From Alphaproteobacteria bacterium (GTDB taxonomy: Bacteria; Pseudomonadota; Alphaproteobacteria; Sphingomonadales; Kordiimonadaceae): a stretch of DNA of 55,264 nt. The notes under the pieces are model-generated. The model did not search any database. It was not told where the DNA came from and worked only from the letters and a program-made list of their open reading frames with translations. The translations under genes and the position numbers were made by a program. Shown in pieces: positions 4,815-22,218 of the stretch (its first letter is position 1; every line of letters begins with the position of its first letter). Where the stretch lies: assembly GCA_006226495.1 (NCBI GenBank), contig SBGU01000006.1:1-55264 (forward strand). The letters run 5' to 3'.

Positions 4815-6583
4815 GACTGATCTATCTGCTTCTGAGGGCTGTGCTATTGCACCCGCTGCGCAGCGCGCTTGCGGGCTTCTGGTGGCTTGTCGGCAAGAAG
4901 CAGCGGGCGCGCAACCGGTTTGGCATCATCCTGGACGACGAACAGCGCCGCTATGAAAAATGGCTCAAGCAACGCAAGGCCATGGACGAAGACAGCCGGC
5001 AACAGCTTGCGGCCCGGGTGGCGGAATTCAGCATCAACGCGCCTGTCCTGCTGCTCTGCGAGGTGCCGGACGCCAATGCAGCGGGCCTAATGCGGGCCAG
5101 TATCCGCGCCCTTGAAGCGCAGCTCTATCGCAACTGGATTCTTTACCTGACCGGAACCGGCGCCCGGGCGCTTGTGGACGGCGACGACGACCGTATCCGG
5201 CTATTGCCCGATGGGCAGGAGGCCGTGCATGCCCTGATGGCGGATGTGGCTTATGTCGGCTGGCTCAGGCCCGGCGACAGGCTCGCGGAAGGTGCGCTTT
5301 TTGAATTCATGGCGGCGGCCGAGCAGGCGCGCCCGTCGCTTATTTACTGCGACGAAGACCAGGTCAATCACCGGAACAAAAGGCGGTTTGCGCATTTCAA
5401 ACCGTCCTGGAACTTCGAGCTTCTGCTGGCGTGCGACTATATCGGCGGCCTTGCCCTCATACGTGCCGACCGGGCGCTGGCTGTCACCCTGCCGTATGGG
5501 GCCGCGTCGTGGCAGACACGGTATCAGATGCTGCTGTTGATCGGGGCCGGGTTGGAACGCGCCGATGTGCATCATGTGCCCGATGTGCTGTATCACCGGC
5601 AGGTGAAGCGCTTCATGCGTGCGAACCTCGTGCGCCCGGCGGCCAGCGGTATCGACCATGGTGCAACATTGGTGGCCTTTGCGGCCGACGCCGGATTCAA
5701 GGCGCGCCTGTGTGAGGACCAGTTCGGCAACGTGCGCCTGTGCCGCCCTGTGCCACAGCCTGCGCCCCTGGTGTCGCTGATCATTCCAACCCGCGATACA
5801 CTCAGGCTGACCCGCAAATGTGTGCGCAGCATCCTCGAAAAAACCACCTACCCGAATTATGAACTGCTGATTGTCGATAACGACAGCAGCAAACCGGCGA
5901 CCCTGAAATTCTTTGACCGCATTGCGGGCGACGCGCGGGTACGCATCCTCAAATACCCCGGCGAATTCAATTATTCGGCCATCAACAATTTTGCAGCCGG
6001 CGAAGCACGCGGTGCGTTTATCGGCCTCATCAACAATGATACCGAAGTCATCACGCCGGAATGGCTGGATGAACTGGTCGCCGAAGCTGCCCGACCGGAC
6101 GCGGGGGCCGTGGGGGCCAAGCTTCTGTATGCCGATGGCCGCATCCAGCATGCCGGGGTGTTTACCGGTATGGGAAAACTGGCGGGCCACGGGCACCGGT
6201 TCCTCAAGAACGATGCGCCTGGCTATTTCTATCGTGCGCACCTCAGCCAGTATGTCAGCGCGGTCACCGGCGCGTGCCTCGTGGTCGCCAAGGCGAAGTT
6301 CGATGCGGTAGGCGGGCTGGATGCCGAACATCTGAAAGTGGCCTTCAATGATGTCGACCTGTGCCTGAAGCTGCAGGCGGCGGGCTATCACAATATCTAT
6401 GTGCCGCATGCGGTGCTGTATCATTATGAAAGCAAATCGCGCGGCAAGGACCTGAAGGGTGAAAAGCGCGCGCGCTATCTGGGCGAGGCCGCCGTGCTGC
6501 AGGAACGCTGGGGCACCGACACCGAGGTGGACCGGTACCATAACAGGAACCTGAGCCTGCACCGCGAGGACTTCGGCCTTTAG
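4811..6583 (+). CDS. Tandem GT2 glycosyltransferase
   Basis: A 590-residue protein with the tandem architecture known from O-antigen and rhamnan synthesis glycosyltransferases. A hydrophobic N-terminus (residues 1-30) is followed by a degenerate GT2-like half with YCDEDQVN near residue 179 and HFKPSWNFELLL. An intact GT2 domain starts near 318 (VSLIIPTRDTLRLTRKC), with VDNDSS, the NNDTEV metal/nucleotide site and FNDVDLCLKL. The gene starts with GTG, overlapping the previous stop by 4 bases. Given the adjacent divergent rhamnose operon, a rhamnosyltransferase is a reasonable but unproven guess. Confidence 0.88.
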   Translation: MRLIYLLLRAVLLHPLRSALAGFWWLVGKKQRARNRFGIILDDEQRRYEKWLKQRKAMDEDSRQQLAARVAEFSINAPVLLLCEVPDANAAGLMRASIRALEAQLYRNWILYLTGTGARALVDGDDDRIRLLPDGQEAVHALMADVAYVGWLRPGDRLAEGALFEFMAAAEQARPSLIYCDEDQVNHRNKRRFAHFKPSWNFELLLACDYIGGLALIRADRALAVTLPYGAASWQTRYQMLLLIGAGLERADVHHVPDVLYHRQVKRFMRANLVRPAASGIDHGATLVAFAADAGFKARLCEDQFGNVRLCRPVPQPAPLVSLIIPTRDTLRLTRKCVRSILEKTTYPNYELLIVDNDSSKPATLKFFDRIAGDARVRILKYPGEFNYSAINNFAAGEARGAFIGLINNDTEVITPEWLDELVAEAARPDAGAVGAKLLYADGRIQHAGVFTGMGKLAGHGHRFLKNDAPGYFYRAHLSQYVSAVTGACLVVAKAKFDAVGGLDAEHLKVAFNDVDLCLKLQAAGYHNIYVPHAVLYHYESKSRGKDLKGEKRARYLGEAAVLQERWGTDTEVDRYHNRNLSLHREDFGL

Positions 6584-6596
6584 AGCAGTGCCGCTG

Positions 6597-7361
6597 TTAC
6601 CGGTAAGTTATTGATACTTTACCGAAATCCCCAAAATCGGCTTCGATATGGCAGGGGCCGGGCACGTCTGTATAGGGTGTCAGGCTGCCAAGCAGCACAT
6701 AATCCCCCGCCTTCACGTCATGGCCCCGCGCCGTGATTCGGTTCACATGATCGCACACCAGCGCCAGCGGTCGGTCGATCAGCGCCTGCAATGTACCGGA
6801 GGCTGCCACTTCCCCATCCAGCCGCAGACTGACCGCCATATCGGCGATGCTGGTTATGCTGGCACCGTTTGCGCGACCGATGACACATTTGCCGCTGGCG
6901 CCATTGTCGGCCACCAGCGCAAAGGGCCCTTCGGTGGTGGCAAGGGTGCGGAAGCGTGTGTGCGGTATCTCGAGCGCCGGATGCAGGCTGCCAATGGCGG
7001 CGGCCACCCGGGCTTCGGAATAGACGACACCGGGCCGTGCCGGCAGGTCGGTCGCGAACCGCACCGCGGGTTCACATTCCACGCCGCGCTGGCGCCAGGT
7101 CGTTATGTCGGTGCTGCCGCCCGTGGGCAACATGTCGTCCACCCGCAGCAGGCCGGAAAACGGGCGCGGCAGGCCAAGACCCTTGCGCGACGCCTGGTTC
7201 GAGGCGCCCAGCTTCCAGGCGGCGGCCACAAAACCAAGGGATGCAAGCACCCGGTCCTGCGCCTGTTCCGCCGCTTCCAGGCTGTCGGGGCGTTCGGTGC
7301 CTTCAAGGCTTGCCACAGTGCCGGTCTCGTAGGCGCGGATGATCTTTTCTGTCAGGGACAT
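6597..7361 (-). CDS. 2-keto-4-pentenoate hydratase / FAH-superfamily enzyme
   Basis: This 254-residue protein has the pattern of the hydratase/decarboxylase branch of the fumarylacetoacetate hydrolase superfamily (MhpD-like). That branch adds water to, or decarboxylates, 2-oxo-4-enoic acids using a divalent metal. Visible landmarks are WKLGASNQASRKGLGLPRPF near residues 49-68, the acidic ECEPAVRF around residue 96, HPALEIP, and a C-terminal VLLGSLTPYTDVPGP. It lies alone on the minus strand between plus-strand glycan genes, convergent with the GT before it and divergent from the operon after it. It could be catabolic and unrelated, or act on a keto-acid sugar precursor. Confidence 0.72.
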   Translation of the reverse strand: MSLTEKIIRAYETGTVASLEGTERPDSLEAAEQAQDRVLASLGFVAAAWKLGASNQASRKGLGLPRPFSGLLRVDDMLPTGGSTDITTWRQRGVECEPAVRFATDLPARPGVVYSEARVAAAIGSLHPALEIPHTRFRTLATTEGPFALVADNGASGKCVIGRANGASITSIADMAVSLRLDGEVAASGTLQALIDRPLALVCDHVNRITARGHDVKAGDYVLLGSLTPYTDVPGPCHIEADFGDFGKVSITYR

Positions 7362-7480
7362 ATCGGTTTCCAGTGTGCCATGGCCTTAAATGCAAACATG
7401 GATATTGAGTTGGCCGGGCGAACATGCGAAGACGGTTGTATTACCGAATTCTATTTATTTTGCAGCTTTAAGAACAGGCC
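7362..7480. promoter_or_regulatory. AT-rich divergent intergenic region, probable promoter zone
   Basis: The 119 bases between two divergent genes include an AT-rich patch (about 7430-7470) that stands out from the GC-rich flanks. The 11-gene operon starting at 7481 needs a promoter here. I could not settle on one -35/-10 pair with good spacing. Confidence 0.35.
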
Positions 7481-8254
7481 ATGGACACTAGCGCCGCCAT
7501 TGAAAACATGGAAGCCGTATTGCGTGCGGCGGGCACACGCCTGCGGGCCCTCAAGGACGGCAATGCGCGGGTTCTGACGTCCGAAGGGCGCGACATCAAG
7601 CTTGAAGCAGACCTGATTGCCGAATCCGTGATCCTGGACGGACTGGCCGCCACGTCGGACCTGCCGGTCCTGAGCGAGGAAAAGGGCTGGCAGGGCACTC
7701 CGCCGGGCGAAGATGGCCTCTATTGGCTCGTGGACCCGCTGGATGGCAGCTACAATTTCCTGCGCGACTTTCCACTGTGCTGCAGCGCAATCGCGCTCTG
7801 CCGGGGTACGACCCCGCTTGCGGGCGCCATCTATGATTTCAATGGTGATGTGCTTTACGCTGGGGGTATCGGTGTCGCAGCCACGGCAAACGGCCAACCG
7901 ATCCGGGTCGCGGCAACGGCAACTGTTGGCCAGGCCTGTGTGATGACCGGCATGCCCGTGGGCGGCGTGTATGACGATGCGGGCCTAAGCCGGCTCGCCG
8001 CCTCGCTCGGCCCCTGGAAGAAGGTGCGCATGATCGGCACGGCAACCCTGTCGCTCGCCTATGTCGCGGCAGGCAGGGCCGACTTCTATCATGAAAATGG
8101 CATATTCTGGTGGGATGTTGCCGCCGGCCTTGCGATTATCGAGGCGGCGGGCGGTAAATGGTCCGTCCGGGGCGACGCCATGCAAGGCGCGCCGCTTGAG
8201 GTGAAAGCCGGAGTTCCGGCAATTTTTGACGCGATGAATACGAGGGAAGACTAG
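7481..8254 (+). CDS. Inositol-monophosphatase-family phosphatase (CysQ/IMPase-like)
   Basis: A Mg-dependent small-molecule phosphatase of 257 residues. The metal-binding motifs are present: LSEEKG near residue 66, DPLDGSYNF starting at 85, and WDVAAG near 211. Family members act on inositol phosphates, sugar phosphates or 3'-phosphoadenosine 5'-phosphate (PAP), and sequence alone does not decide which. Two roles fit the context. It may dephosphorylate a sugar phosphate before or after activation by the cytidylyltransferase three genes on, or recycle PAP released by the two sulfotransferases of the locus. It is first in a long plus-strand operon and is followed after 5 bases by the next gene. 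Confidence 0.85.
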   Translation: MDTSAAIENMEAVLRAAGTRLRALKDGNARVLTSEGRDIKLEADLIAESVILDGLAATSDLPVLSEEKGWQGTPPGEDGLYWLVDPLDGSYNFLRDFPLCCSAIALCRGTTPLAGAIYDFNGDVLYAGGIGVAATANGQPIRVAATATVGQACVMTGMPVGGVYDDAGLSRLAASLGPWKKVRMIGTATLSLAYVAAGRADFYHENGIFWWDVAAGLAIIEAAGGKWSVRGDAMQGAPLEVKAGVPAIFDAMNTRED

Positions 8255-8259
8255 TCCTT

Positions 8260-9195
8260 ATGGCCGAGGTTGTTGTCTGTTCACGGTCCTTTTCCAACCA
8301 TCCTGTCCTCAGGCAGGAACTGCTGGCGCGCTATCCCGACACCAAATTCAATGACGCGGGCAAAAGCCTGGCGGGCGATGACCTGATCGACTTCATCGGC
8401 GATGCACCCAAGGCCATCATCGCGCTCGAGGTTCTGGACGCCGACACCGTGGCCCGGCTCCCGAACCTGAAGGTGATCGGCAAATATGGCGTCGGTCTCG
8501 ACAAGATCGATTTCGAGGCGCTCAAGAAAGCCGGCATCCGTATGGGCTGGACCGCGGGTGTGAACAAGCGCTCGGTATCCGAACTGGTGATCGCGATGGC
8601 GATTTCCATGCTGCGGCTGGTGCCCTATGCCGCCGACGAGATCAAGGCCCGGCGCTGGCGCCAGCATGTCGGTCGCCAACTGTCGGACCAGACGGTGGGC
8701 ATCGTTGGCTGCGGCCATGTCGGCAAGGACCTTGTGACCCTGCTGAAGCCGTTCGGGTGCCGCATCGTCGCGCATGATATCGTCGATTTCCCGGAATTCT
8801 ATGCCGAACATGGCGTGACCGCCCTGCCGCTGGATGAGCTTCTGGCCACATCTGATGTCATCAGCCTGCATGTACCTTTGGACCGCAGCACCCGCCACAT
8901 GATCAATGCCGGGAAATTCGCGCTGATGAAACAGGATGCGGTGCTGATCAATTGCGCGCGCGGCGGTATTGTCGACGAAAGGGCGCTGGCGACCGCGCTG
9001 CGGGAAGGGCCGCTGGCGGCGGCGGCGTTCGATGTTTTTGACGTCGAACCCATGTATGATGATATACTGCTGGCGTTGCCCAATTTTCTGGCAACACCGC
9101 ACATTGGCGGCAGCGCCGCAGAGGCCATTCTGGCCATGGGACGTGCGGCCATTGACGGGCTCGACCATGCGGTCGATGCCGACACTTATATTTGA
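8260..9195 (+). CDS. D-isomer-specific 2-hydroxyacid dehydrogenase (SerA-like)
   Basis: An NAD(P)-dependent oxidoreductase that interconverts a 2-hydroxy and a 2-keto acid. The Rossmann motif GIVGCGHVGKD is at about residues 147-157. The catalytic Arg is in NCARGGIVDE (about 233), the Glu in FDVEP (about 260) and the His in TPHIGGSA (about 282). At 311 residues it lacks the C-terminal ACT or intervening domains of full-length SerA, so regulation by serine is unlikely. A good ribosome-binding site (GAGGGAAGA) lies 9 bases upstream. Its place between a phosphatase and a sugar isomerase suggests it makes a sugar-acid precursor rather than serine. Confidence 0.88.
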   Translation: MAEVVVCSRSFSNHPVLRQELLARYPDTKFNDAGKSLAGDDLIDFIGDAPKAIIALEVLDADTVARLPNLKVIGKYGVGLDKIDFEALKKAGIRMGWTAGVNKRSVSELVIAMAISMLRLVPYAADEIKARRWRQHVGRQLSDQTVGIVGCGHVGKDLVTLLKPFGCRIVAHDIVDFPEFYAEHGVTALPLDELLATSDVISLHVPLDRSTRHMINAGKFALMKQDAVLINCARGGIVDERALATALREGPLAAAAFDVFDVEPMYDDILLALPNFLATPHIGGSAAEAILAMGRAAIDGLDHAVDADTYI

Positions 9196-9217
9196 AATCG
9201 TTTCCAAGGGTCGTTGT

Positions 9218-9841
9218 ATGGGTAGTTTTCCGAACCAGAAATTTGATAGCGCCGGTAGCCTTCTGACCGCTTACATGGAGCGTCTGCAGGCGGCAGCAGC
9301 CACGGTTGACCGCGCGGCCTTCGAGCGGGCGGCGGTGGTGCTTCTGGAAACCTTCGCGCGCGGTGGCATACTGTATGTGTGCGGCAATGGCGGCTCCGCG
9401 GCCATTTCGAACCATATGACCTGCGACATCATGAAAGGCGTGCGTTCGGACACCGACCTGACCCCCCGTATTGTCAGCCTTTCCAGCAATATCGAGATCA
9501 TCACCGCCATCGCGAACGACATCGCCTATGCCGATGTGTTTGCTTATCAGTTGAAAGCGATGGTCAAGCCCGTGGACGCCTTGATGACCATCAGTTCGTC
9601 CGGCAATTCCGACAATATCGTGCGCGTGATCGAGGTCGCAAAGGAAGCCGGTATTCCCACCATCGCCATGACCGGGTTTGACGGCGGACGCAGTGCAACC
9701 ATGGCCGACATCAACCTGCATGTGGCCGGGGACAATTATGGTATTATCGAGGACGTCCACCAGTCGCTGATGCACGTGCTGGCGCAATATATGCGCATGT
9801 CGGGCATGCCGGTGGACCTGATCTGCGACCGCAAGTTCTGA
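9218..9841 (+). CDS. SIS-domain sugar-phosphate isomerase (GmhA-like)
   Basis: A 207-residue SIS-domain protein resembling sedoheptulose-7-phosphate isomerase GmhA. It has CGNGGSAAISNHMTCDIMKG and the phosphate-binding ISSSGNSDNIVRVIEVAKEAG. The His-containing IIEDVHQSLMHVLAQY sits where GmhA has its catalytic His. Likely role: aldose/ketose phosphate isomerisation for an unusual activated sugar. The ATG at 9218 was chosen because the longer open frame overlaps the dehydrogenase gene in another frame and its extension has no SIS similarity. No gmhB/hddA partner is adjacent, so a plain heptose pathway is not complete here. Confidence 0.87.
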   Translation: MGSFPNQKFDSAGSLLTAYMERLQAAAATVDRAAFERAAVVLLETFARGGILYVCGNGGSAAISNHMTCDIMKGVRSDTDLTPRIVSLSSNIEIITAIANDIAYADVFAYQLKAMVKPVDALMTISSSGNSDNIVRVIEVAKEAGIPTIAMTGFDGGRSATMADINLHVAGDNYGIIEDVHQSLMHVLAQYMRMSGMPVDLICDRKF

Positions 9842-9859
9842 CCGCGGGGGGATGGAACC

Positions 9860-10525
9860 ATGAAGCGCATTGCCATGATACCGGCCCGCATGGGCAGCCA
9901 GCGCCTGAAGAAGAAAAACCTTCTGCCGGTGCGCGGCGTTCCGCTGATTACACGTGCCATCCGCAAGTGCCAGGAAGCCGGCGTGTTCGACGAAATCTGG
10001 GTCAATTCGGAAAATGCCGAATTTGGACCGATTGCCGAAGCCGAAGGCGCGCGCTTCCACCAGCGCCCCGAAGCCCTGGGCGACAATAATGCCACCAGCG
10101 AACAGTTCGTGAAGGAATTCCTGGACAGCCACGAGTGTGAGCTCCTGTTCCAGGTGCATTCGATCGCCCCGTTGCTGACCGCATCGGAAGTGCGCGCCTT
10201 CGTCGAGGCCATGGCCGCCAGCGACTGCGACGCGTTCATGAGTGTGGTCGAAGAAAACCTGGAATGCCTGTATGACGGCAGCCCGGTCAATTTCACCTTC
10301 GCGGAAAAAACCAATTCACAGGACCTGGTGCCGATCCAGCGCATCGTCTGGGCCATCACCGGCTGGCGGCGCGGCCCGTTTGTGGCAGCCGCCAACGCGG
10401 GCGGTTGCGCCACCTACAGCGGGCGCGTCGGCTATTTCCCGGTTGGTCGCATGGCCGGCCATGTGATCAAGACACAGGAAGACCTGGATATCGCCGAGGC
10501 GATGTTCGATATCATCCATGCCTGA
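9860..10525 (+). CDS. CMP-sugar synthetase-like cytidylyltransferase (NeuA/KdsB family)
   Basis: Activates a sugar acid or related compound with CTP. The N-terminal IPARMGSQRLKKKNLLPV (residue 7 on) is the CTP-binding P-loop of acylneuraminate cytidylyltransferases (consensus IPARxGSxxxxxKN). At 221 residues it matches a single-domain enzyme. The C-terminal half has the usual VIKTQEDLDIAEAMF ending. A strong GGGGGGATGG ribosome-binding site precedes it. No NeuB, LegI, PseI or KdsA-type condensing enzyme is in the window, so the substrate is unlikely to be a standard nonulosonic acid made here. Confidence 0.88.
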   Translation: MKRIAMIPARMGSQRLKKKNLLPVRGVPLITRAIRKCQEAGVFDEIWVNSENAEFGPIAEAEGARFHQRPEALGDNNATSEQFVKEFLDSHECELLFQVHSIAPLLTASEVRAFVEAMAASDCDAFMSVVEENLECLYDGSPVNFTFAEKTNSQDLVPIQRIVWAITGWRRGPFVAAANAGGCATYSGRVGYFPVGRMAGHVIKTQEDLDIAEAMFDIIHA

Positions 10526-10563
10526 CAGGGCATCCGGCAGTTGTTCATCAGGGGGACACTGAC

Positions 10564-11526
10564 TTGAAGCGCACGACCATTATCGGGATCACCAACGAAT
10601 CCTTCGTGCACCCGGACGGGGTGAAGGAAGAACTGGTGACGCGCCGCAAGGCGGCAGAGCAGGCGCTGCTGTCGGCCAGCCGCACATTTGTCCATGTCGA
10701 CTGCCCGGCATGCGGGTCATCGCGCTGCGTGGCAGCCTTCGAGCGCGACGGCTATTCCTTCCAGTCGTGCCTGGACTGCGAAAGCCTCTATATGTCGCCG
10801 CGGCCCGATGCCGCCAAGCTCGCCGACTATTATGACCGTTCGGATTATGCGGCGTTCCTGCGTTCGGACGCCTACCGCGATGCCACCGCAGATTTCCGGC
10901 GTGACCAGGCCCGCAAACGTGCCGACAAGCTGATCGTGTTGCAGCAAAAGACACAGGATGCCGGCGCGGCGCTGGCGCTTTATGCTCCCAAAAGCGAGAT
11001 GCTGGCCGAGGTGCTGACACAGGATGGTGTCACGGGGATCGATACCCTCGAAGCGCCCTGGCGCACGCGGGAGAAACTGCATGCCGTGGGTGGTTATGCC
11101 CTGATTTCGGCTTTCGATATTTTCGAGCGTGTACCCGACGTGGGGGCCGAACTGGCCCGGCTGGCCGGCATGCTGGCTGTGGGCGGGCGCATCATCCTGT
11201 CCGTGCGCTCAGGCAGCGGTTATGACCTCCTGACCCTGTGGCAACATGCCGATATCTGCCCGGTGGAGCATATGAACCTGATGACCGTTGAAGGCATCAG
11301 CAAGCTGATGGAAGGTGCCGGCTTCGAGGTCAGCGAACTGTCGACGCCCGGGCAACTGGATTTGCAGATAGTCGAGCGTGTACGTGCAGGCAAAAGCCTG
11401 AAGCTGGACCGCTTCACCGAATATTTCCTGTCCCGGCGCGACAGTTTCGCGCACGAGGAATTCCAGCATTTCCTGCAAAAAAGCCTCTTGAGCTCCCACA
11501 TGCTTGTGGTGGGGGTGAAGAAATGA
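10564..11526 (+). CDS. Methyltransferase-like protein with N-terminal zinc-ribbon-like motif
   Basis: About 320 residues, starting at a TTG at 10564 with AGGGGGA at the right distance; the longer frame would overlap the cytidylyltransferase. An N-terminal CPACGS-x20-CLDCESLYMSPRP module (about residues 45-80) is the short Cys pair often found before class I SAM methyltransferases of sugar clusters. The middle keeps late motifs (SAFDIFERVPDVGAEL, GGRIILSVRSGSG, EHMNLMTVEGISKLMEGAGF). The SAM-binding motif I (usually DxGxGxG) is replaced by LALYAPKSEML. It may therefore be inactive as a methyltransferase or use another cofactor. It overlaps the next gene by ATGA. Confidence 0.7.
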   Translation: MKRTTIIGITNESFVHPDGVKEELVTRRKAAEQALLSASRTFVHVDCPACGSSRCVAAFERDGYSFQSCLDCESLYMSPRPDAAKLADYYDRSDYAAFLRSDAYRDATADFRRDQARKRADKLIVLQQKTQDAGAALALYAPKSEMLAEVLTQDGVTGIDTLEAPWRTREKLHAVGGYALISAFDIFERVPDVGAELARLAGMLAVGGRIILSVRSGSGYDLLTLWQHADICPVEHMNLMTVEGISKLMEGAGFEVSELSTPGQLDLQIVERVRAGKSLKLDRFTEYFLSRRDSFAHEEFQHFLQKSLLSSHMLVVGVKK

Positions 11527-12581
11527 GCCGGATGTCAGAAGCCATGACCATGGACCCGGCGGCGTCGGCCCGCCGTGCGCCCCTCAAAGCCGCGATCATC
11601 GGCATGGGCAAGGTGGGCCATACCCGGGCGCGTGTGATCGCCGAACGCGACGATGTGGTGCTGGTGGCCGCCGCCGACGTGAACACAAGTGCCGCTGCGG
11701 CCTATCCCGGCATCCGGTTCGAAACCGACTTTCGCGGCATTGTTACCGACCCGGAAATCGATGTGGTTTTTGTTGCCACCACCAACAAGGTGGCGCCCGA
11801 TGTCGTGTGCCTCGCGCTGCAGCACGGCAAACATGTTTTCTGCGAAAAGCCGCCCGGGCGGTCAGTCGCCGATATCGAACGCATCTGTGCCGCCGAAGCC
11901 GCGAACCCGGGCTGCAAGCTGCAGTTCGGCTTCAACCACCGCTATCATTATGCGGTCCTCGAAGCCAAAAGCATGGTCGACAGCGGCGTGTTCGGCAAGA
12001 TCCTGTGGGCACGCGGCGTTTACGGCAAGATGGGCGGTACCGATTTCGAGAATATCTGGCGGTCGAACCCCGAAGAAGCCGGCGGCGGCATCCTGCTTGA
12101 CCAGGGTATCCACATGCTGGACCTGTTCACCCATTTCATGGGCGACTTTTCCGATATCCAGAGCATCGTGCAGACCATGCACTGGGACATCCCGCTTGAG
12201 GACAATGCCTTTGCCCTGTTGAAGACGCCGGCGAACCAGGTGGCGATGCTGCATTCCTCGGCCACCCAGTGGCGGCACAAGTTCAATCTCGAGCTCTGCC
12301 TCGAGGAGGGCTACATCACCCTGACGGGCATCCTGTCGTCGACCCGGTCATACGGGGATGAAACCCTGGTGTTTGCCCGCAAGGACCTGGACGGTCGCAC
12401 TGGCAAGCCCGGCAATCCGCAGGAAGAACAGATGTTCTTCGACAAGGACCATAGCTGGGAACTGGAAGTGGCGGCCTTCATGGATGCGGTGACCAAGGAC
12501 CAGCCGGTCAAATGGGGCAATTCCGCCGATGCGCTCAGGGCCATGAAACTGGTATTCGGCATCTATGGTGTCGGGCGCTAG
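11523..12581 (+). CDS. Gfo/Idh/MocA-family oxidoreductase
   Basis: An NAD(P)-dependent dehydrogenase or epimerising oxidoreductase acting on sugars. The N-terminal Rossmann motif is AAIIGMGKVGHTRA at about residues 21-34. The family CEKPPGRS motif follows near 116-123 and the C-terminal alpha/beta domain is full length (352 residues total). GGGILLDQGIHMLDLF contains the catalytic-region His pattern of the family. The start overlaps the preceding stop by 4 bases, so it is coupled to the methyltransferase-like gene. Likely role: oxidation or reduction of an intermediate in the local CMP- or NDP-sugar pathway. Confidence 0.88.
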   Translation: MSRMSEAMTMDPAASARRAPLKAAIIGMGKVGHTRARVIAERDDVVLVAAADVNTSAAAAYPGIRFETDFRGIVTDPEIDVVFVATTNKVAPDVVCLALQHGKHVFCEKPPGRSVADIERICAAEAANPGCKLQFGFNHRYHYAVLEAKSMVDSGVFGKILWARGVYGKMGGTDFENIWRSNPEEAGGGILLDQGIHMLDLFTHFMGDFSDIQSIVQTMHWDIPLEDNAFALLKTPANQVAMLHSSATQWRHKFNLELCLEEGYITLTGILSSTRSYGDETLVFARKDLDGRTGKPGNPQEEQMFFDKDHSWELEVAAFMDAVTKDQPVKWGNSADALRAMKLVFGIYGVGR

Positions 12582-12617
12582 GGGTCTGGGGTTGGGGCCG
12601 GATACAGGGAGCTGCGT

Positions 12618-14333
12618 GTGCAACTTTGCCTGCTGACCAGAGAAAGATTGCCCTCAGGCGCTGCCGGCGTGCCGTTCGAGGCCCTGTGGGCGCGGCTGCA
12701 CCGCGAACACAAGGCGCTTACCTTCCAGATACTGCCCCATGCCTTCAGGGCCGAAGCCGATATCTGCCTGCCGGATTGTCGGCATCTGCGCGGGCGTTTT
12801 GGCGCCGTATCGGTGCTGCCCCATGCCCACGACCTGATCGGTGAACTGGCGACCACCCTGCGTGCGCTGGGGCCAGCCCTTGCCTGTATTGCCGATGATG
12901 CGCTGGCACCGCTGGCGGTGGGCCTGCGGCAACAATGCCCGGAGCTGCGGCTGGTGATGCTGGCACCCGCCGCCGCGGCATCTGCCAACTGGCCGGTGTT
13001 CGGCGACCTGTTCGAAGCGGTCCTGTCCTGGGAAAATTGCGCGGATGCGATTGCCGATCAACTGGCCGGTATGCTGCCGCCAGCGGCGCAACCGGCGCGG
13101 CCCATGGTGGAGCCGTTGGCGGTGGGGGCCCTTTTCAATGCCATGACCCGCTTTTTCACCGGGCATTTCCTGTGCTGGCAACCGGAAACAGGCGGGCGGT
13201 TCGACGCCAGCCTGTTCCATGACGGCAACCCGGTCGATTGCAATATCGCCTTGGATGTGCATGGCGCCGGCCCGTTTGCCGTGCTGGACGTCAAGGCCGT
13301 GTTGCCACCCGCGCTGGTACCAGAGGCAGTATTGCTGCGGCTTGAAAAAGCAGGCCCGGCTGGCCGCGAAACCCTGTTTGAAGGCCCCCTTGCGACCGCT
13401 TGCCCGCGTGAAAGCTGCGGCATGCTGGCGGTCGATGAACGTGTGTCGGAAAGGCGCCTCATCTGGTGGCAGGCGCCGGCCGGTATGACGCAAGGCAGCG
13501 CCGCGCGCAGCGCTGTGACGATAAAGGCCGAGCCATTGCCGCCGGTATCGGACGGGCCACTGCATGTTGCCGCGCACGGGCATGATTGCTGGTTCCAGGA
13601 GCGGGTCCTGTTGCAGAATGGTGCGCGCGGCGACGATCTTTCCGTCTGGCGCGACCGCCACGCCGGAGAGGTTGCCTGGCTGATCGGCAATGGTCCCAGC
13701 GTGCGGCATGAAGACCTTGAGAAGCTGCAGGGGCGCCTGACTATCGGCTTTAACCGCCTGCATCTGGCTTATGACAGGATACAGTTCCGGCCCAGCTATC
13801 TGGTCAGTGCCGACCGCCAGATGCTGGATGATTTCGGCACCGAAATCCTGACACATGCGGCATCGCCGGTATTTTTCGCCCGGAACAGCCGGCCCGACAT
13901 CGCAGGCGATTTCACCTGGCTCAGGCAGGTGGGCTGTTTCCCGACCGTTTTTTCGCTTGATGCCGAGCAGTATGTCACAGCCGGCGGCTCCAGCGTTTAT
14001 GTGGCCATGCAGCTTGCCTATCTTATGGGCGTGCGCAAATTCTGTTTCTATGGTGCCGACTTCCGCTTTTCGTTCGAACGCGACGCGGCCACCACGGATC
14101 ACGAGCGCAGCGCAGTGGGCGACGGCAACCATTTTATCCCCGGCTATCGGGGTGGCCGCCCCTGGAGCCCGCCCGAGTTTCGCGCCATCACCCAGTCCTT
14201 CCTGACCGCTGACCTGCTGTTGCGGGCTGAGGGCGGGTTTGTGAAGAATGTCACCCGTGGCGGGCGGCTTGAGATTTTCGAGCGCATGGATTTTGATGCC
14301 GCCCTTGCCGCTGACAAGGAGGGACGACTGTGA
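12618..14333 (+). CDS. DUF115 (MptE/Maf-like) protein
   Basis: 571 residues, GTG start. The C-terminal part (from about residue 350) is a DUF115 domain: WLIGNGPSVRHEDLEKLQG, then FNRLHLAY, a YLVSADRQML segment and the FYGADFRFSF motif. The fold is shared with archaeal 6-hydroxymethylpterin diphosphokinase MptE and the flagellin-glycosylation Maf proteins. The N-terminal 350 residues resemble a degenerate glycosyltransferase-like region and are not confidently assignable. Maf proteins transfer nonulosonic acids to flagellin, so a CMP-sugar-dependent transfer here fits the upstream cytidylyltransferase. It overlaps the next gene through GTGA. A second DUF115 protein lies at 18790-21216. Confidence 0.75.
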   Translation: MQLCLLTRERLPSGAAGVPFEALWARLHREHKALTFQILPHAFRAEADICLPDCRHLRGRFGAVSVLPHAHDLIGELATTLRALGPALACIADDALAPLAVGLRQQCPELRLVMLAPAAAASANWPVFGDLFEAVLSWENCADAIADQLAGMLPPAAQPARPMVEPLAVGALFNAMTRFFTGHFLCWQPETGGRFDASLFHDGNPVDCNIALDVHGAGPFAVLDVKAVLPPALVPEAVLLRLEKAGPAGRETLFEGPLATACPRESCGMLAVDERVSERRLIWWQAPAGMTQGSAARSAVTIKAEPLPPVSDGPLHVAAHGHDCWFQERVLLQNGARGDDLSVWRDRHAGEVAWLIGNGPSVRHEDLEKLQGRLTIGFNRLHLAYDRIQFRPSYLVSADRQMLDDFGTEILTHAASPVFFARNSRPDIAGDFTWLRQVGCFPTVFSLDAEQYVTAGGSSVYVAMQLAYLMGVRKFCFYGADFRFSFERDAATTDHERSAVGDGNHFIPGYRGGRPWSPPEFRAITQSFLTADLLLRAEGGFVKNVTRGGRLEIFERMDFDAALAADKEGRL

Positions 14334-15820: not shown

Positions 15821-15982
15821 ACGGTGTGGCAAGATAATGATTTTCCTGCCGAATTGCAGGCAGTTGTAACATTTGCAGGGCCATATGGCGGTTGTGCCGC
15901 CGGGCCATATATTGTACCAATTCGCCGATACTGAATGCGCCGGGGGCGGATTTCCCGGCACCACTCAAGAGCAGTTTATTCC

Positions 15983-16360
15983 ATGAAGATTATCATTGAT
16001 CTGGACGATACCCTGACCGAGGCCGACAGCAGCCGGCCCTATAGCGACGTGCTGCCGCGCACCGACATGATCGAACAGCTTCGGGCGTACCGGGCGCGCG
16101 GTTTCCAGATCGTGATTTTTACATCGCGCAACATGCGCACCTACGAAGGCAATGTCGGCAAGATCAATGTGCACACCCTGCCGACGATCCTGGAATGGCT
16201 GGAAAAGCATGACGTGCCGTTCGATGAAGTGGTTGTCGGCAAACCCTGGTGCGGGCATGGTGGTTTCTACGTGGACGACAAGGCAATCCGCCCGAGCGAA
16301 TTCCTGAACATGAGCTACGAAGAGATTTGCGACCTGGTGGGGGAAAAGGCGTGGCAGTAG
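15983..16360 (+). CDS. HAD-superfamily phosphatase, capsule-biosynthesis type
   Basis: A 125-residue single-domain HAD protein. The nucleophile motif IIDLDDTLTEAD is at residues 3-14, motif II is FTSRNM, and the acidic motif IV lies in FYVDDKAIRP. It lacks a cap domain, as is usual for the small phosphatases of capsule and LPS loci that dephosphorylate sugar phosphates. The ATG at 15983 is used; the frame opens slightly earlier without similarity. The last 10 bases overlap the next gene, so the two products are made together. Confidence 0.85.
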   Translation: MKIIIDLDDTLTEADSSRPYSDVLPRTDMIEQLRAYRARGFQIVIFTSRNMRTYEGNVGKINVHTLPTILEWLEKHDVPFDEVVVGKPWCGHGGFYVDDKAIRPSEFLNMSYEEICDLVGEKAWQ

Positions 16361-17967
16361 GCAAACCGACACTCTTGATCACATCGGCGGCTTACGCGGA
16401 CGACACCATCTGTGTCGAACTGGGACGCCTGCCGCCGTCGTTCCTGCCGCTTGGCAACAAGCGTCTTTATGTGCACCAGGTCGAGGCGGTGCGCCATCTG
16501 TTCGACCGTATCGTGATTTCGCTGCCCGAAAGCTTCCGTGTGCCGGAAAAGGACAGCAAGATCCTGGCCGAGCTGGATGTGGATGTCGAATATGTGCCCG
16601 ACGGGCTTTCGCTTGGCAATTCCATCGCCTTCTGCCTGAAGATGATCGGCGACCATACGGTTGCCATCCTGCACGGCGATACCCTGATCTATGACATCAT
16701 GCTCGACAAGGCGGACGGGTTCACCAGCCATGTGTCGGACCAGCCGTACCAGTGGGCGGTGTTGTCGGACGATACCAACGATATCAGCCTGCCGATTATC
16801 TCGGAACATATCGGCGACGCGCGCCACAAGGTGCTGAGCGGTTTTTTCCTGTTCTCGGACGCGACCAAGATGATCCGGGCGCTGACCATCACCAACGGCA
16901 ATTTCATCGAAAGCCTGCGGCTTTATAACAAAGCCCTGCCGTTGTTCCCGCTGTCGGCGGGCGAATGGTTCGATTTTGGCCACTTCCATACCTACTATCA
17001 TTCCAAGACCAAACTGACGACCCAGCGGGTGTTCAACGGTCTGGATATCGACCGGATCGCGGTTACCAAAACCAGCAAGGACAGCTTCAAGATGGCATGC
17101 GAAGCCAACTGGCTGCGGGCGATCCCGGACGAACTGAAGCTGTTTACACCCACCTATCTGGGCGATGCCAGCGGCGCGGACGGGGCGACGGGGTACCGCA
17201 CCGAACGGCTGATGTTCTCCAGCCTCAATGACATGTTCATCTTCGGCCGGCTGAACCGCCATGTCTGGGATGCCATTTTTGACGAATGTGCCTTTTTCCT
17301 GGAAAGCTGCAATCGCTACCGCCCGGCTGAATTCAAAGCCGAAGACTGCGCAGCGCTGTATCTGCCCAAAACCCTGGAACGGCTGCACGAGTTCGGCGCA
17401 GCGTCGGGTTTCCCGGTCGAAGAAAGCCTGCGCTTCAATGGCACGGAAATGCCGTCGCCGATCGCGCTGGCGGAATTTGCCAGCCAGTTCATCCCGGCCC
17501 TGAAGGCCGAGGACGCCCGCATCATGCATGGTGATTTCTGCTTCAGCAACATCCTGTATGATTCCCGCGCCCGCCAGATCAGGGTCGTGGACCCGCGTGG
17601 TTTTATCAACCGTGGCGAGCCGACCATTTATGGCGACAGCCGTTATGACGTGGCCAAGCTGTTCCATTCGGCCGTGGGCTATTACGACCTGATCATCGCG
17701 GGTTATTTTGATGTCAGCTACAAGGATGGCGCCCTCGATTTCTCGCTGATCGCCGACGACTATGTGAACCTGGTGCATGATTCCTTCGTCGCCCGCCAGT
17801 TCGGCCCGGTGCGGGGCGACGATCCGTCCCTGATCGCCATTGCCATCCATCTGTTCCTGTCCATGGTGCCCCTGCATTCGGACCATGCGCAGCGCCAGCT
17901 TGCCTTCATCGCCAACGCCTATCGGCTCTTTGGCATGCTGCAGGCGAAGGTTGGGGGTGCGGCATGA
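16351..17967 (+). CDS. Nucleotidyltransferase-kinase fusion
   Basis: 538 residues from a GTG at 16351 that has GGTGGGGG upstream. The N-terminal part (1-about 225) resembles sugar-phosphate nucleotidyltransferases: FLPLGNKRLYVHQVEAV matches the PLGxKPLxxHQxE pattern, and LHGDTLIYD holds the metal site. The Gly-rich GxGxR loop, however, is replaced. The C-terminal part (about 290-538) is an aminoglycoside-phosphotransferase/choline-kinase-like fold with the catalytic loop HGDFCFSNILYD (H393) and VVDPRG (D near 412). Two consecutive activation steps, phosphorylation then nucleotidyl transfer, would thus be fused. It overlaps both neighbours. Confidence 0.82.
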   Translation: MAVGKPTLLITSAAYADDTICVELGRLPPSFLPLGNKRLYVHQVEAVRHLFDRIVISLPESFRVPEKDSKILAELDVDVEYVPDGLSLGNSIAFCLKMIGDHTVAILHGDTLIYDIMLDKADGFTSHVSDQPYQWAVLSDDTNDISLPIISEHIGDARHKVLSGFFLFSDATKMIRALTITNGNFIESLRLYNKALPLFPLSAGEWFDFGHFHTYYHSKTKLTTQRVFNGLDIDRIAVTKTSKDSFKMACEANWLRAIPDELKLFTPTYLGDASGADGATGYRTERLMFSSLNDMFIFGRLNRHVWDAIFDECAFFLESCNRYRPAEFKAEDCAALYLPKTLERLHEFGAASGFPVEESLRFNGTEMPSPIALAEFASQFIPALKAEDARIMHGDFCFSNILYDSRARQIRVVDPRGFINRGEPTIYGDSRYDVAKLFHSAVGYYDLIIAGYFDVSYKDGALDFSLIADDYVNLVHDSFVARQFGPVRGDDPSLIAIAIHLFLSMVPLHSDHAQRQLAFIANAYRLFGMLQAKVGGAA

Positions 17968-18710
17968 TCATCCTGCCCATGGTCGGTCGCAGCAGCCGCT
18001 TTACCAAGGCCGGCTACGACCGGCCCAAATATATGCTGGAAGCCCATGGCCGCAGCGTGCTTGAACATGTGATCGCAAGCTTCGAGGCTTGTTTTGGCAA
18101 GGAGCCCTTCCTGTTCATCACCCTGGCGGCAGACGGTGTTGCCGGGTTCATCGCCGGCGAATGTGCGAAGCTGGGCCTTGCACCCGACAGCTTCAGCATT
18201 GTCGAACTGGACGCCATGACCGAAGGTCAGGCCGAGACCATTGCCAAGGGTATTGCCGCATCGGGCATGGACCTGAACGACAGCATTTCAATTTTCAATA
18301 TCGACACCATTCGCCCGGGTTTCCGCTATCCGGATGAATATGCGCTGTCGGAAGTGGATGGGTATCTGGAAGTCTTCAACGGCGAAGGTGAGGGCTGGTC
18401 CTTTGTCGAGGCCGATACGGACAAGGGCAACTATGCGGCCCGGCGCGTTACCGAAAAGGTACGCATTTCCGACCTGTGTTCGACCGGTCTTTATTATTTC
18501 CGCACCGCGCAACTGTTCCTGGATGTCTATGAAAGCATCCGCAGTGTGCCGGCGGCAGAGTTGCAGGGCGGTGAACGGTATGTGGCGCCGCTCTATAACG
18601 TGCTGATCCAGCGCGGCGACGTGGTGCGCTATCACGAGATCGGCGCCGACGAGATCATCCTGTGCGGTATCCCCGAACAATATGAGGCCTTCAAGCGCAT
18701 GACGCTTTGA
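17964..18710 (+). CDS. Sugar nucleotidyltransferase, capsule type
   Basis: 248 residues, coupled to the fusion gene by an ATGA overlap. The N-terminal MVGRSSRFTKAGYDRPKYML is the nucleotidyltransferase signature (GxxxRFxxxGxxxPK), with Ser in place of Gly. IFNIDTIRPGFRYP carries the metal-binding Asp. It ends with a typical GIPEQYEAF segment. Likely role: activating a sugar phosphate or a non-sugar substituent from the neighbouring kinase and phosphatase. It is the last gene of the operon and a terminator follows. Confidence 0.85.
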   Translation: MIILPMVGRSSRFTKAGYDRPKYMLEAHGRSVLEHVIASFEACFGKEPFLFITLAADGVAGFIAGECAKLGLAPDSFSIVELDAMTEGQAETIAKGIAASGMDLNDSISIFNIDTIRPGFRYPDEYALSEVDGYLEVFNGEGEGWSFVEADTDKGNYAARRVTEKVRISDLCSTGLYYFRTAQLFLDVYESIRSVPAAELQGGERYVAPLYNVLIQRGDVVRYHEIGADEIILCGIPEQYEAFKRMTL

Positions 18711-18789: not shown

Positions 18790-21216
18790 TTATTTGGCTT
18801 TGGTCGTCTTTTCTTCATTGAGACTGCTGATCTGACGCTGCAGCGCGCGATTGCGGGTCAGAAGCTCCTTGACCGCCAGCTTGAGATCGAGCTCTGCCGC
18901 CTGGGTTTCGACCGGGTACACGAGCGATTGTACGCTGCCGTCGCGGAAGCGCAGCACCACCTTGATGGTGTCGCCGGTCTTGATCGGCGCCTCGCCGGAG
19001 GCGCTCCAGACATAGATGCCTTCACCGCTGGCGAGCGAGCCATTTTCGATGCCTTCCTGCTGGTAGGTGCCGGAAAACAGGAACTTGTCCTCGTGGAACA
19101 CGGCCACGGACGCGGGTTTTGGCGTCACCCAGCCGCTGACGCGCAGCTCCTCGAACGCTGAAATATATTGCGCCTGGATAATACCGCCATAGATGTCGCC
19201 GTGCAGGACACGGCTGTCATTGTCCTTTTGTTTTTCCGCCATCAGCGTGTCGAAGTCTGCACGTTCGAACAGCTCGAGCTTGGTGGCGCGCGAGGCGTTG
19301 TAGATTTTCCGGCCCGCGGCCTCGAAGGTTTCCTTGGCCTTGGCGAAAGCCTGTTCCTGCAGGTCGAGGCGCGGCATGGTCCATTTTTCGCCATCGGGGC
19401 GATAGCCCTTGTGGAAGTGGTTGACCTCGCCTTCGTTCACGATCACGGCTTCGCCCTTCACGGTCTTTTCGTCCGATACATTGTTGAAGGAAAAGCTGAA
19501 ATCGAGCCCGATCAGGTACAGTTCCTCGATCCCCATAAAATAGGCTAGCTGCATCATCAGATAGACAACAGTATAGCCGCCGGCAGCACCCTGGGTCAGG
19601 TCTTCGCCGAATTCGAAGATGCGCTGGTCGCCGTCATAGATCGGACGGCGGTTTTTCACAAAATAGGTATCCTTCAGGAACCCGTATTTCGCGCGCAGAT
19701 CTTCCGGGAAGAAATTGATGGTTGGCAGTTTGGACCAGTCGACATCGAAGGTTTCATACACCAGCGAGTCGATGATGGAATAATAGGTCGGGCGCCAGTC
19801 GGTTTCATCAAACGCCAGGGTGATCTTGTTGCAGGCGAAGGTGATTTCGTCCTTCAGCATGTCGAGATCGCTGACCTTCAGGCTTGGCCCCGTGGCCACA
19901 ATGAAGGCGCGGCGGCCCTTGTGAATATCCTTGAATTCGGCCAGCGACTGAAAATAGCGCTGGCTGGTGTTGGCGAAATAGGTGCCCTTTTGGGTCTGCA
20001 TCGGGTTCAGGCGATTGAGAGCAACACTGCGCCGGCCGCGGGTGGTGAAGGGCAACTGCACATAGATGCCGTTTGCCCGGTAGAACTGGTTCATCTGCGG
20101 GATCAGGATATCCTCGATATAACGTTCCTGCTTGAAGTTCTCGTTGTCGATGGTGTTGTTTGCACCATGGATGCGGTAGGCCCCCAAGGGGGTCGATATC
20201 GCCTTGGCATGGCCAAGGCTGATGGCGGCGCGGGTCAGGTAGCCGTCGGCACAGATGCGGAAGGCACGCGGGATCGGGTATACGGCGCGCAGGATTTCGG
20301 TCGGGAATGACAGGCCGGCGGTGGGCACAAACGGCCCCGGAATGCGCAGTTTTTCCTTGCGGGCATGGTTGATCACGTCACCTTCGATCAGGCACGACCG
20401 GAAGGGCTCGTGCGACAGTTGGTCGCCGTAACAGATGTTCAGGCCATGCTGGTACAGGGCATAAAGCCCGCTATCCTTGTTGGCTTCGAAGCTGGCGCGC
20501 ACGGTCTTGATCTTGTCGGCGAACCAGAAATCGTCAGCGTCCATCACGCAGGTCAGGTCGCCGCGCGCGGCCCGGATGCCGGAGTTGAAGGCGTGCCCCT
20601 GGCCGGCGTTATGGTCTTTCAGGATCAGTTCGATGCGCGGGTCCTGTTTCCGGTATTCCAGCAGGGTCTGGCGCGTGTTGTCGGTCGAGGCATCGTCGAT
20701 GATGATGAACTGGAAATTGCGGTCCGATTGCGCGAGCACGCTGTCGATCGCCGCCTTCAGATAGTGGCCGCCGTTATAGACGCCCAGGATCACCGTGGTC
20801 AGGCCGGCTTCCAGATTGTCGGGCCAGCAGTGCCGGCTGGCCAGCCGTTCGGTATTGTCGTCATAATCGATGATCAGGTTTTCAAGCTGTGACTGTTTGG
20901 CGATATCGAGCACAAAACTGTCAGCGGCGACCTCGGTTCCGTCCTTTTCCAGCACCAGCTCGAAGGTGGCTTTCTTCTTGGCCAGCACGGCTTCGGGCAG
21001 CAGGATCGTGCGGCGGAACCCGGTCAGGTCCTGTTGCGGTACCTTGAAATGGTCATTGACGTCGGGGCGTGCCTGATTGGCGCTGATCCGGGAATAGAGC
21101 ACACCGTCAACTTTCAACAGCGCCTGGTGCCCGGCCTTCGGCAAACACCAGCCGACGGCGATGACGCTGCTTTGTGTGATGAAAATAATATTCTCAAGTT
21201 TCAGTAAATCACTCAT
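18790..21216 (-). CDS. Multi-domain GT2-DUF115 protein with coiled-coil tail
   Basis: 808 residues with at least four modules. First is an N-terminal beta-rich region (1-110). A GT2 domain spans about 138-370 (TVILGVYNGGHYLKAAIDSV, IIIDDASTDNT, VMDADDFW at 224-231). A DUF115/MptE-like domain spans about 435-655 (FIVATGPSLKVSDLDML, IGLDFSFSFNN). A second beta-rich region covers 670-770 (WVTPKPASVAVFHEDKF), followed by a predicted coiled coil at 772-804. A sugar transferase fused to a Maf-type domain suggests modification of a protein or carrier-bound glycan. It is convergent with the preceding operon and last of a minus-strand run of five genes. Confidence 0.82.
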   Translation of the reverse strand: MSDLLKLENIIFITQSSVIAVGWCLPKAGHQALLKVDGVLYSRISANQARPDVNDHFKVPQQDLTGFRRTILLPEAVLAKKKATFELVLEKDGTEVAADSFVLDIAKQSQLENLIIDYDDNTERLASRHCWPDNLEAGLTTVILGVYNGGHYLKAAIDSVLAQSDRNFQFIIIDDASTDNTRQTLLEYRKQDPRIELILKDHNAGQGHAFNSGIRAARGDLTCVMDADDFWFADKIKTVRASFEANKDSGLYALYQHGLNICYGDQLSHEPFRSCLIEGDVINHARKEKLRIPGPFVPTAGLSFPTEILRAVYPIPRAFRICADGYLTRAAISLGHAKAISTPLGAYRIHGANNTIDNENFKQERYIEDILIPQMNQFYRANGIYVQLPFTTRGRRSVALNRLNPMQTQKGTYFANTSQRYFQSLAEFKDIHKGRRAFIVATGPSLKVSDLDMLKDEITFACNKITLAFDETDWRPTYYSIIDSLVYETFDVDWSKLPTINFFPEDLRAKYGFLKDTYFVKNRRPIYDGDQRIFEFGEDLTQGAAGGYTVVYLMMQLAYFMGIEELYLIGLDFSFSFNNVSDEKTVKGEAVIVNEGEVNHFHKGYRPDGEKWTMPRLDLQEQAFAKAKETFEAAGRKIYNASRATKLELFERADFDTLMAEKQKDNDSRVLHGDIYGGIIQAQYISAFEELRVSGWVTPKPASVAVFHEDKFLFSGTYQQEGIENGSLASGEGIYVWSASGEAPIKTGDTIKVVLRFRDGSVQSLVYPVETQAAELDLKLAVKELLTRNRALQRQISSLNEEKTTKAK

Positions 21217-21278
21217 GCCCGATCCTCAGAAAAATCCCGATGGTACTGTTTATATTACAACAGCCGCACGTTGGAAGG

Positions 21279-22097: not shown

Positions 22098-22218
22098 CAA
22101 TACCTCCCCGATGGCCAGGCGGTGCCGGCCGGATATGCAATTCATCTAAATATGGCCTGATTATACAGGCCAAATCCTGTTCGTGAATGCCTGACTGCGT
22201 TCGCCCGCGGCTTCTTCA

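Follow-up and report, generated by a model that had tools for sequence, protein, structure and literature searches.

A conserved bacterial gene set and a possible oxidative, synthase-independent route to CMP-activated sugar acids

To our knowledge, every known route to a sugar acid activated with cytidine monophosphate (CMP) builds the carbon skeleton with a phosphoenolpyruvate (PEP)-dependent synthase, the usual marker gene of these pathways. Such synthases are represented by KdsA in the CMP-Kdo (3-deoxy-D-manno-octulosonate) pathway, which comprises KdsD, KdsA, KdsC, and KdsB, and by NeuB, LegI, or PseI in the sialic, legionaminic, and pseudaminic acid pathways, where they work with the cytidylyltransferases NeuA, LegF, or PseF. 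A set of six genes on contig SBGU01000006.1 (GenBank assembly GCA_006226495.1) of an alphaproteobacterium of the family Kordiimonadaceae shares some traits with both types of pathways. The stretch analyzed, referred to as the window, consists of positions 1 to 55,264 of this contig, and the set encodes a phosphatase of the inositol monophosphatase (IMPase) family, a D-2-hydroxyacid dehydrogenase, an SIS isomerase, a NeuA-like cytidylyltransferase (the CMP enzyme), a methyltransferase-like protein, and a Gfo/Idh oxidoreductase. Similarly to the CMP-Kdo pathway, it would combine an isomerase, a phosphatase, and the CTP-dependent activation of a 2-keto sugar acid; unlike that pathway, it has two dehydrogenases instead of KdsA, its phosphatase belongs to the IMPase rather than the haloacid dehalogenase (HAD) family, and its CMP enzyme is nearer to NeuA. 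With the sialic-type pathways it shares the NeuA-fold cytidylyltransferase, the YhcH-type anomerase found in some loci, and nearby MptE/DUF115 proteins, but it differs from them in the frequent lack of NeuB and in scoring far under the cut-off of the PseF model. The third likeness is to the SerA- and PdxB-type oxidation of phosphorylated 2-hydroxyacids, as this pathway is generally understood: the set includes a D-2-hydroxyacid dehydrogenase whose best match is 3-phosphoglycerate dehydrogenase (PGDH), although its product would feed a CMP sugar and not serine or pyridoxal phosphate.

The unit and its independence of the known synthases are well supported. Whether these genes form a full pathway that yields a CMP-activated 2-ulosonic acid without PEP condensation is an evenly balanced question, judging from the comparative evidence presented below. 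A broader proposal is more tentative and somewhat on the doubtful side: a widespread oxidative route that would lead from sedoheptulose 7-phosphate to CMP-activated hept-2-ulosonic acids, with a twin branch in which a relative of 3-dehydroquinate (DHQ) synthase would close the same intermediate, a 3-hydroxy analogue of 3-deoxy-D-arabino-heptulosonate 7-phosphate (DAHP), into a quinate-like carbasugar acid, itself likewise activated with CMP.

The initial annotation, made from the window alone, described six consecutive, tightly spaced genes in the order from the phosphatase to the Gfo/Idh oxidoreductase and no NeuB/KdsA-type synthase in the window. Both statements hold. All six genes lie on the plus strand at 7481-12581 (Table 1) in open frames, with profile matches for every family; they are separated by 5, 22, 18, and 38 bases, with the last pair overlapping by 4 bases. 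The start codons of the SIS gene (ATG at 9218) and of the methyltransferase-like gene (TTG at 10564) were assigned by reading. No match to NeuB (PF03102) or to the KdsA family (PF00793) was found in the window.

Near its home genome the CMP enzyme is rare: among 98 relatives, own genome included, only that genome has it at 1e-20, and in a phylum-wide sample of 398 genomes two others reach 1e-22, with 28-32% identity. When species genomes were scanned with an alignment built from seven CMP proteins, 63 loci from many phyla were recovered. Partners were counted at fixed scores at distances of at most 10 kb from the CMP gene using profiles grown from the window genes; the loci counted were also the source of these profiles, and the counts are rough, as some contigs end early and there are near-duplicates among the loci (L026 and L029). 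The dehydrogenase is present in 48 of the 63 loci, the SIS isomerase and the Gfo/Idh oxidoreductase in 43 each, and the IMPase in 40; all four partners are found in 30 loci and at least three in 42. The methyltransferase-like gene is less frequent (24 loci), as are YhcH (10) and NeuB (4, so that it was not found in the other 59). As a control, 139 kb of DNA from other glycan loci and the remainder of the window had no IMPase, dehydrogenase, SIS, Gfo/Idh, or methyltransferase match at 1e-5, and each of its eight CMP matches was below threshold. The partner counts in the 63 loci, set against zero in the control loci, therefore indicate that the set is not a chance string of genes.

Gene fusions link the same families. 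A single protein in a Bacteroidetes metagenome-assembled genome (MAG; locus L062) combines Gfo/Idh, CMP, and SIS parts, the Gfo/Idh part being weak (24.9 bits versus 24), and fused CMP-SIS and YhcH-SIS proteins are encoded in Desulfovibrio and a member of the Lachnospiraceae, respectively. Beyond the scanned loci, all six genes occur on plasmids of Leisingera and Paenibacillus, with NeuB also present in the Paenibacillus stretch, nearly 11 kb away, and a Sinorhizobium fredii plasmid carries all but the methyltransferase-like gene. The idea that the set represents phage or plasmid cargo was rejected: there was no phage match at 1e-15, and of the 52 plasmid records that matched, three did so at no less than 36% identity over nearly the whole query.

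For 45 of the 63 loci, the whole genome, given without completeness figures, was searched for NeuB and KdsA; the 18 loci left out were mostly on short contigs or had few partners, but included one with all four (L020). NeuB was present in 19 of these 45 genomes and was not found in 26, and four genomes had neither NeuB nor KdsA over the cut-off. One of them, Novosphingobium sp. NDB2Meth1, encodes Gfo/Idh, SIS, IMPase, CMP, and dehydrogenase genes together, without the methyltransferase-like gene; sphingomonads are not known to have lipopolysaccharide (LPS), which agrees with the absence of Kdo genes from this genome. In Reichenbachiella faecimaris, SIS and Gfo/Idh were not seen in 20 kb. The other two, Sulfurimonas and Paludibacter, are MAGs that carry the sister version of the set described below, while the records of Novosphingobium and Reichenbachiella are not labelled as MAGs. 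Weak KdsA-model matches in Reichenbachiella and Paludibacter (31 and 62 bits versus 314) are probably DAHP synthases. These four genomes are the strongest evidence that the set works without a known synthase.

A condensing enzyme of a family outside these searches, such as a NanA-like or other pyruvate aldolase, might make the ulosonic acid, with the SIS, Gfo/Idh, and dehydrogenase proteins building or decorating its sugar half. The ulosonate routes known so far form a carbon-carbon bond to a three-carbon unit, which counts in favor of such an aldolase, and aldolases were outside the scope of the whole-genome searches. However, among the 33 examined of the 35 neighbor families that recur in at least four loci, NeuB, found in five loci, was the sole condensing enzyme (three family representatives match nothing, and two by-eye families, FkbM and flagellin, were left out), and an aldolase would leave the conserved dehydrogenase without an obvious task. 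This explanation is regarded as unlikely. The KdsA proteins of the own genome had no match in the loci compared with them.

The presumed catalytic residues of the partner enzymes are intact. In the IMPase, E67, D85, D88, and D212 are kept in all 44 module sequences; in the dehydrogenase, R234, E263, and H281, which we take to be the Arg/Glu/His catalytic triad of D-2-hydroxyacid dehydrogenases, are kept in 54 of 54; and in the Gfo/Idh protein, K109, D193, and H197 are kept in 48 of 48. The catalytic roles of the conserved residues of these three enzymes are presumed from their families. The best solved-structure matches of the dehydrogenase are 3-phosphoglycerate dehydrogenases, and those of the SIS protein are phosphoheptose isomerases (GmhA). 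In the SIS protein, residues of the phosphate loop and four others (His, Asp, Glu, and His) are conserved in 50 to 52 of 52 sequences, with differences from GmhA at some positions. The model of the CMP enzyme (predicted local distance difference test [pLDDT] score, 95.1) fits best to CMP-sialate, CMP-Kdn, and CMP-pseudaminate synthetases (query template modeling [TM] score, 0.75-0.86; 19-24% identity) and less well to KdsB-type CMP-Kdo synthetases (0.65-0.76). Its fold is thus of the NeuA type, one of those with which the initial annotation had suggested comparing it, and the pocket is not identical to that of the Kdo or sialic acid enzymes, differing at the presumed metal site. All its curated-family scores are under the cut-offs, for PseF (Table 1) as well as for the KdsB models (29-47 bits versus 155 to 281). 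The methyltransferase-like protein has a CxxC...CxxC zinc ribbon and, by reading of the alignment, no clear S-adenosylmethionine (SAM) motif; its model (pLDDT, 81.9) has a weak fold match, with a query TM score of about 0.5, to the sugar C3-methyltransferases KijD1 and TcaB9.

A CMP-activated compound made by isomerization, oxidation or reduction, and dephosphorylation, as initially suggested, fits the gene content, the fusions, the residue conservation, and the phosphatase/cyclase swap described below. The comparisons also point to the probable sequence of steps and to a probable intermediate. In the putative pathway, the SIS isomerase would convert a ketose phosphate, most likely sedoheptulose 7-phosphate, to an aldose phosphate, which the Gfo/Idh oxidoreductase would oxidize at C1 to a lactone or aldonate phosphate. 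The PGDH-like dehydrogenase would then turn the C2 hydroxyl into a keto group, giving a 2-ketoaldonate phosphate (hept-2-ulosonate 7-phosphate, if the chain has seven carbons). The likeness to PGDH favors this step, because PGDH acts on a phosphorylated hydroxyacid. The IMPase would take off the phosphate, allowing the acid to close to a hemiketal, perhaps with the help of a YhcH-type anomerase or of an MhpD-like protein; the NeuA-like enzyme would place CMP on C2; and a DUF115-type or other transferase would pass the CMP sugar to a surface glycan. The reactions and their order are an economical interpretation of the swap and of the families to which the enzymes belong, and they are about as likely as not; a chain of seven carbons is less certain, and the product is likewise predicted.

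Some of the neighboring genes can be related to this pathway. A gluconolactonase-family gene (one member tested) is found in 14 loci, which fits the proposed route because a lactone intermediate would call for such an enzyme. The MhpD/NahK-like protein encoded divergently from the set, an addition to the initial gene list, belongs to a family whose enzymes use 2-oxo acids; it has relatives in 21 of the 63 loci and possibly acts on the 2-keto acid. The MhpD-like and YhcH genes never occur in the same locus, and the two proteins may serve the same 2-keto acid. YhcH belongs to the family of the Neu5Ac (N-acetylneuraminic acid) anomerase (PMC8141875). DUF115/MptE-like relatives are encoded at most 10 kb from the CMP gene in 30 of the 63 loci, and the protein from the window is a candidate transferase of the CMP sugar.

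Grouping of the neighbors revealed a sister version of the set, in which SIS, Gfo/Idh, dehydrogenase, and CMP genes are accompanied by a DHQ-synthase-family cyclase, a short-chain dehydrogenase/reductase (SDR), and sometimes an aminotransferase. The cyclase is found in 8 and the IMPase in 40 of the 63 loci, never together (p = 1.3e-4 by a naive calculation that ignores kinship); L004 and L010, cyclase loci from outside the scan, likewise lack the IMPase, and five further loci with the dehydrogenase or Gfo/Idh have neither. In a quick tree, the Bacillota/Desulfovibrio clade and the clade with the cyclase-type loci were both starred; the reference rows formed long branches, three of them inside the cyclase-type clade, and their placement was not used. 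In the cyclase locus checked, L063, the CMP enzyme has a C-terminal cupin domain, which is also found in L062 and L066, both without the cyclase. The L004 contig, an example of the sister version from the IMG/VR viral collection, encodes at 8001-12665 a CMP enzyme, an aminotransferase, an SIS protein, an SDR, and the cyclase.

The own-genome AroB has Arg, Asn, His, His, and DKK residues that we take to bind DAHP, a 2-keto acid, and all ten cyclases examined share them; GE(x)x is followed by Lys in only 6 of the 10 and by His in the other 4. Sedoheptulose 7-phosphate cyclases of the valiolone type differ from DHQ synthase at these substrate residues. The sister-version cyclases therefore probably bind a 2-keto acid 7-phosphate, which is what the SIS, Gfo/Idh, and dehydrogenase proteins would make from sedoheptulose 7-phosphate. 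DHQ-synthase-family enzymes expel phosphate themselves, so that the swap of phosphatase for cyclase can be understood if the two versions have a phosphorylated intermediate in common, with the cyclase using the product of the dehydrogenase in place of the IMPase step. Both versions point to a single compound, a phosphorylated 2-ketoaldonate that probably has seven carbons.

Oxidation of a hexose or pentose phosphate, for example to a hex-2-ulosonic acid, would be a narrower form of the proposed route that overlaps with it. It finds some support in the SIS active site, which is partly unlike that of GmhA, and in an article on the E. coli K3 capsule, cited in the reference list of PMC10433991, whose title names a 4-deoxy-2-hexulosonic acid. 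Nevertheless, the SIS protein is closest to heptose isomerases, and the cyclase version, as inferred from DHQ synthase chemistry, needs seven carbons to make a six-membered carbocycle from a 2-keto acid. A six- or five-carbon substrate is likewise regarded as unlikely.

The closest described relative of the sister-version cyclase is the NCBIfam family TIGR04425 (AroB-related putative sugar phosphate phospholyase, cyclizing). The model names no function; its tie to SIS, Gfo/Idh, dehydrogenase, and CMP genes comes from the present analysis. The L063 cyclase scores 366.8 bits (cut-off 400), and a search of the 398 genomes gave four proteins over the cut-off, two of which (genomes G354 and G336) had already been found via the CMP gene. 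SIS and Gfo/Idh are encoded beside the cyclase in G354, G336, and G132, and the dehydrogenase also in G354 and G132; an IMPase is beside it in none of the four. Three cyclase loci under the TIGR04425 cut-off have no partners.

Several observations weigh against the proposed route. KdsA is over the cut-off in 32 of the 45 genomes, although 31 of these 32 have a single copy, the number to be expected from Gram-negative LPS. Ten of the 63 loci have no partner from among the four. The MhpD-like and methyltransferase-like genes have no step in the route, and the lactonase gene may be a mere roseobacter neighbor (13 of the 14 loci are from roseobacters or their kin). In the sister version, L066 pairs a cupin-type CMP enzyme with an IMPase and no cyclase, no CMP enzyme reaches the threshold in G132, the cyclases of L004 and L060 have neither of the two dehydrogenases near them, and the over-cut-off cyclase of G115 (L098) has no SIS, Gfo/Idh, or dehydrogenase gene nearby; DAHP from the shikimate pathway could also feed the cyclase. 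Further, the window CMP enzyme and its clade have Val202-x-Lys204 where NeuA has, near its C terminus, an Asp-x-Asp motif that is presumably metal-binding. Finally, the own genome has two NeuB proteins (contigs C41 and C55) and two PF00793 matches (C47 and C55), all on other contigs, as the initial annotation had allowed, and PseF over the cut-off was not found in its assembly. The case for independence from synthases therefore rests on other genomes. Separately, the G115 cyclase is accompanied by a relative of the methyltransferase-like protein.

The replaced metal site raises the possibility that the cytidylyltransferase and methyltransferase-like genes are decaying and that the window set makes nothing, as the loss of Asp-x-Asp and the lack of a clear SAM motif might suggest. 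However, the six frames are all open, Lys occupies the second Asp position in 40 of 70 CMP sequences (both Asp residues are found in 26), and the presumed catalytic residues of the four other enzymes are invariant, which makes decay highly improbable.

The synthases of the own genome suggest another explanation, in which the window CMP enzyme would fill the place of the missing PseF and act as CMP-pseudaminate (or similar) synthetase alongside the PseI-like NeuB of C41, with the other five genes serving a separate sugar or modification. By reading, that NeuB is encoded beside a PseG gene, and the window enzyme is the best PseF match of its genome (73.7 bits versus 205.7). The assembly is 96.8% complete, so that a PseF could also be missing from it. 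Against this explanation, NeuB is found in 18 of the 19 genomes of the genus, but the window CMP enzyme in none of the 97 other relatives at 1e-20; the genus therefore does not rely on it. Moreover, in different phyla the SIS, dehydrogenase, IMPase, and Gfo/Idh genes flank the CMP gene or are fused to it, NeuB-free genomes included. A pseudaminate-type role is accordingly considered quite unlikely.

The own-genome synthases (C47, C55, and C41) were rejected as parts of the set, none being near the window. An early view that each had a NeuA-type partner was dropped, as the cytidylyltransferase matches on C55 and C25 read as SpsF-like. On C47, the KdsA and KdsB matches are together, with a KdsC-like HAD gene (by reading) between them. 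The C55 cluster (L083, about 5-18 kb) encodes a KdsA-family match, a short NeuB of 285 amino acids, and an SpsF-like protein; its neighbors, by reading, are transketolase halves, an iron-type alcohol dehydrogenase, and an SDR, and it reads as another unusual ulosonic-acid-like cluster. The pair on C41 (L084) spans 6160-10049.

A literature search, with most subscription journals outside its scope, found no paper on the gene set or on such a route; PMC5133447 appeared to be unrelated. If a synthase-free route is real, many phyla would have surface sugars of a class that has been overlooked. It would also hint at what the TIGR04425 cyclase does, as well as many genes labelled acylneuraminate cytidylyltransferase, and the NeuA family would gain a variant of the metal site; the proposed steps can each be tested with purified enzymes.

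Table 1. Coordinates and profile matches of the six-gene set and adjacent genes in the window
Feature	Position	Strand	Match
MhpD/NahK-family protein, divergent neighbor	6597..7361	-	NCBIfam DmpH, E = 1.6e-13, far under cut-off; NahK, 5.6e-13
IMPase-family phosphatase	7481..8254	+	PF00459, 136 bits
D-2-hydroxyacid dehydrogenase, PGDH-like	8260..9195	+	PF02826, 189 bits; NCBIfam PGDH, 217.6 (cut-off 454)
GmhA-like SIS isomerase	9218..9841	+	PF13580, 79.8; NCBIfam gmhA, 121.2 (cut-off 209)
NeuA-like cytidylyltransferase (CMP enzyme)	9860..10525	+	PF02348, 71.3; NCBIfam PseF, 76.4 (cut-off 205.7)
Methyltransferase-like protein	10564..11526	+	PF13489, 39.8
Gfo/Idh oxidoreductase	11523..12581	+	PF22725, 81.6; PF01408, 69.5
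DUF115/MptE-like protein	12618..14333	+	PF01973, 22.9 bits (under cut-off 34.6)

The set lies in a region of surface-glycan genes, with dTDP-rhamnose-type genes upstream (one tested, PF00908; the rest by reading) and other glycan genes downstream, in addition to the DUF115/MptE-like gene. The segment at 15935-18710, perhaps a second sugar-activation set, encodes an EcbF/BcbF-type HAD phosphatase (183 bits, cut-off 162), followed by a 572-amino-acid protein and then by another protein, whose matches, to a kinase and to a nucleotidyltransferase, respectively, are weak. On the minus strand, at 18790-22145, an 808-amino-acid protein in which a GT2 glycosyltransferase is fused to an MptE-like/DUF115 domain adjoins an Stf0 sulfotransferase. 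Farther downstream, a 991-amino-acid protein (37376-40351, plus strand) reads as a zinc metalloprotease (HELGHAMGLKH) with glycine-rich repeats of the RTX type.

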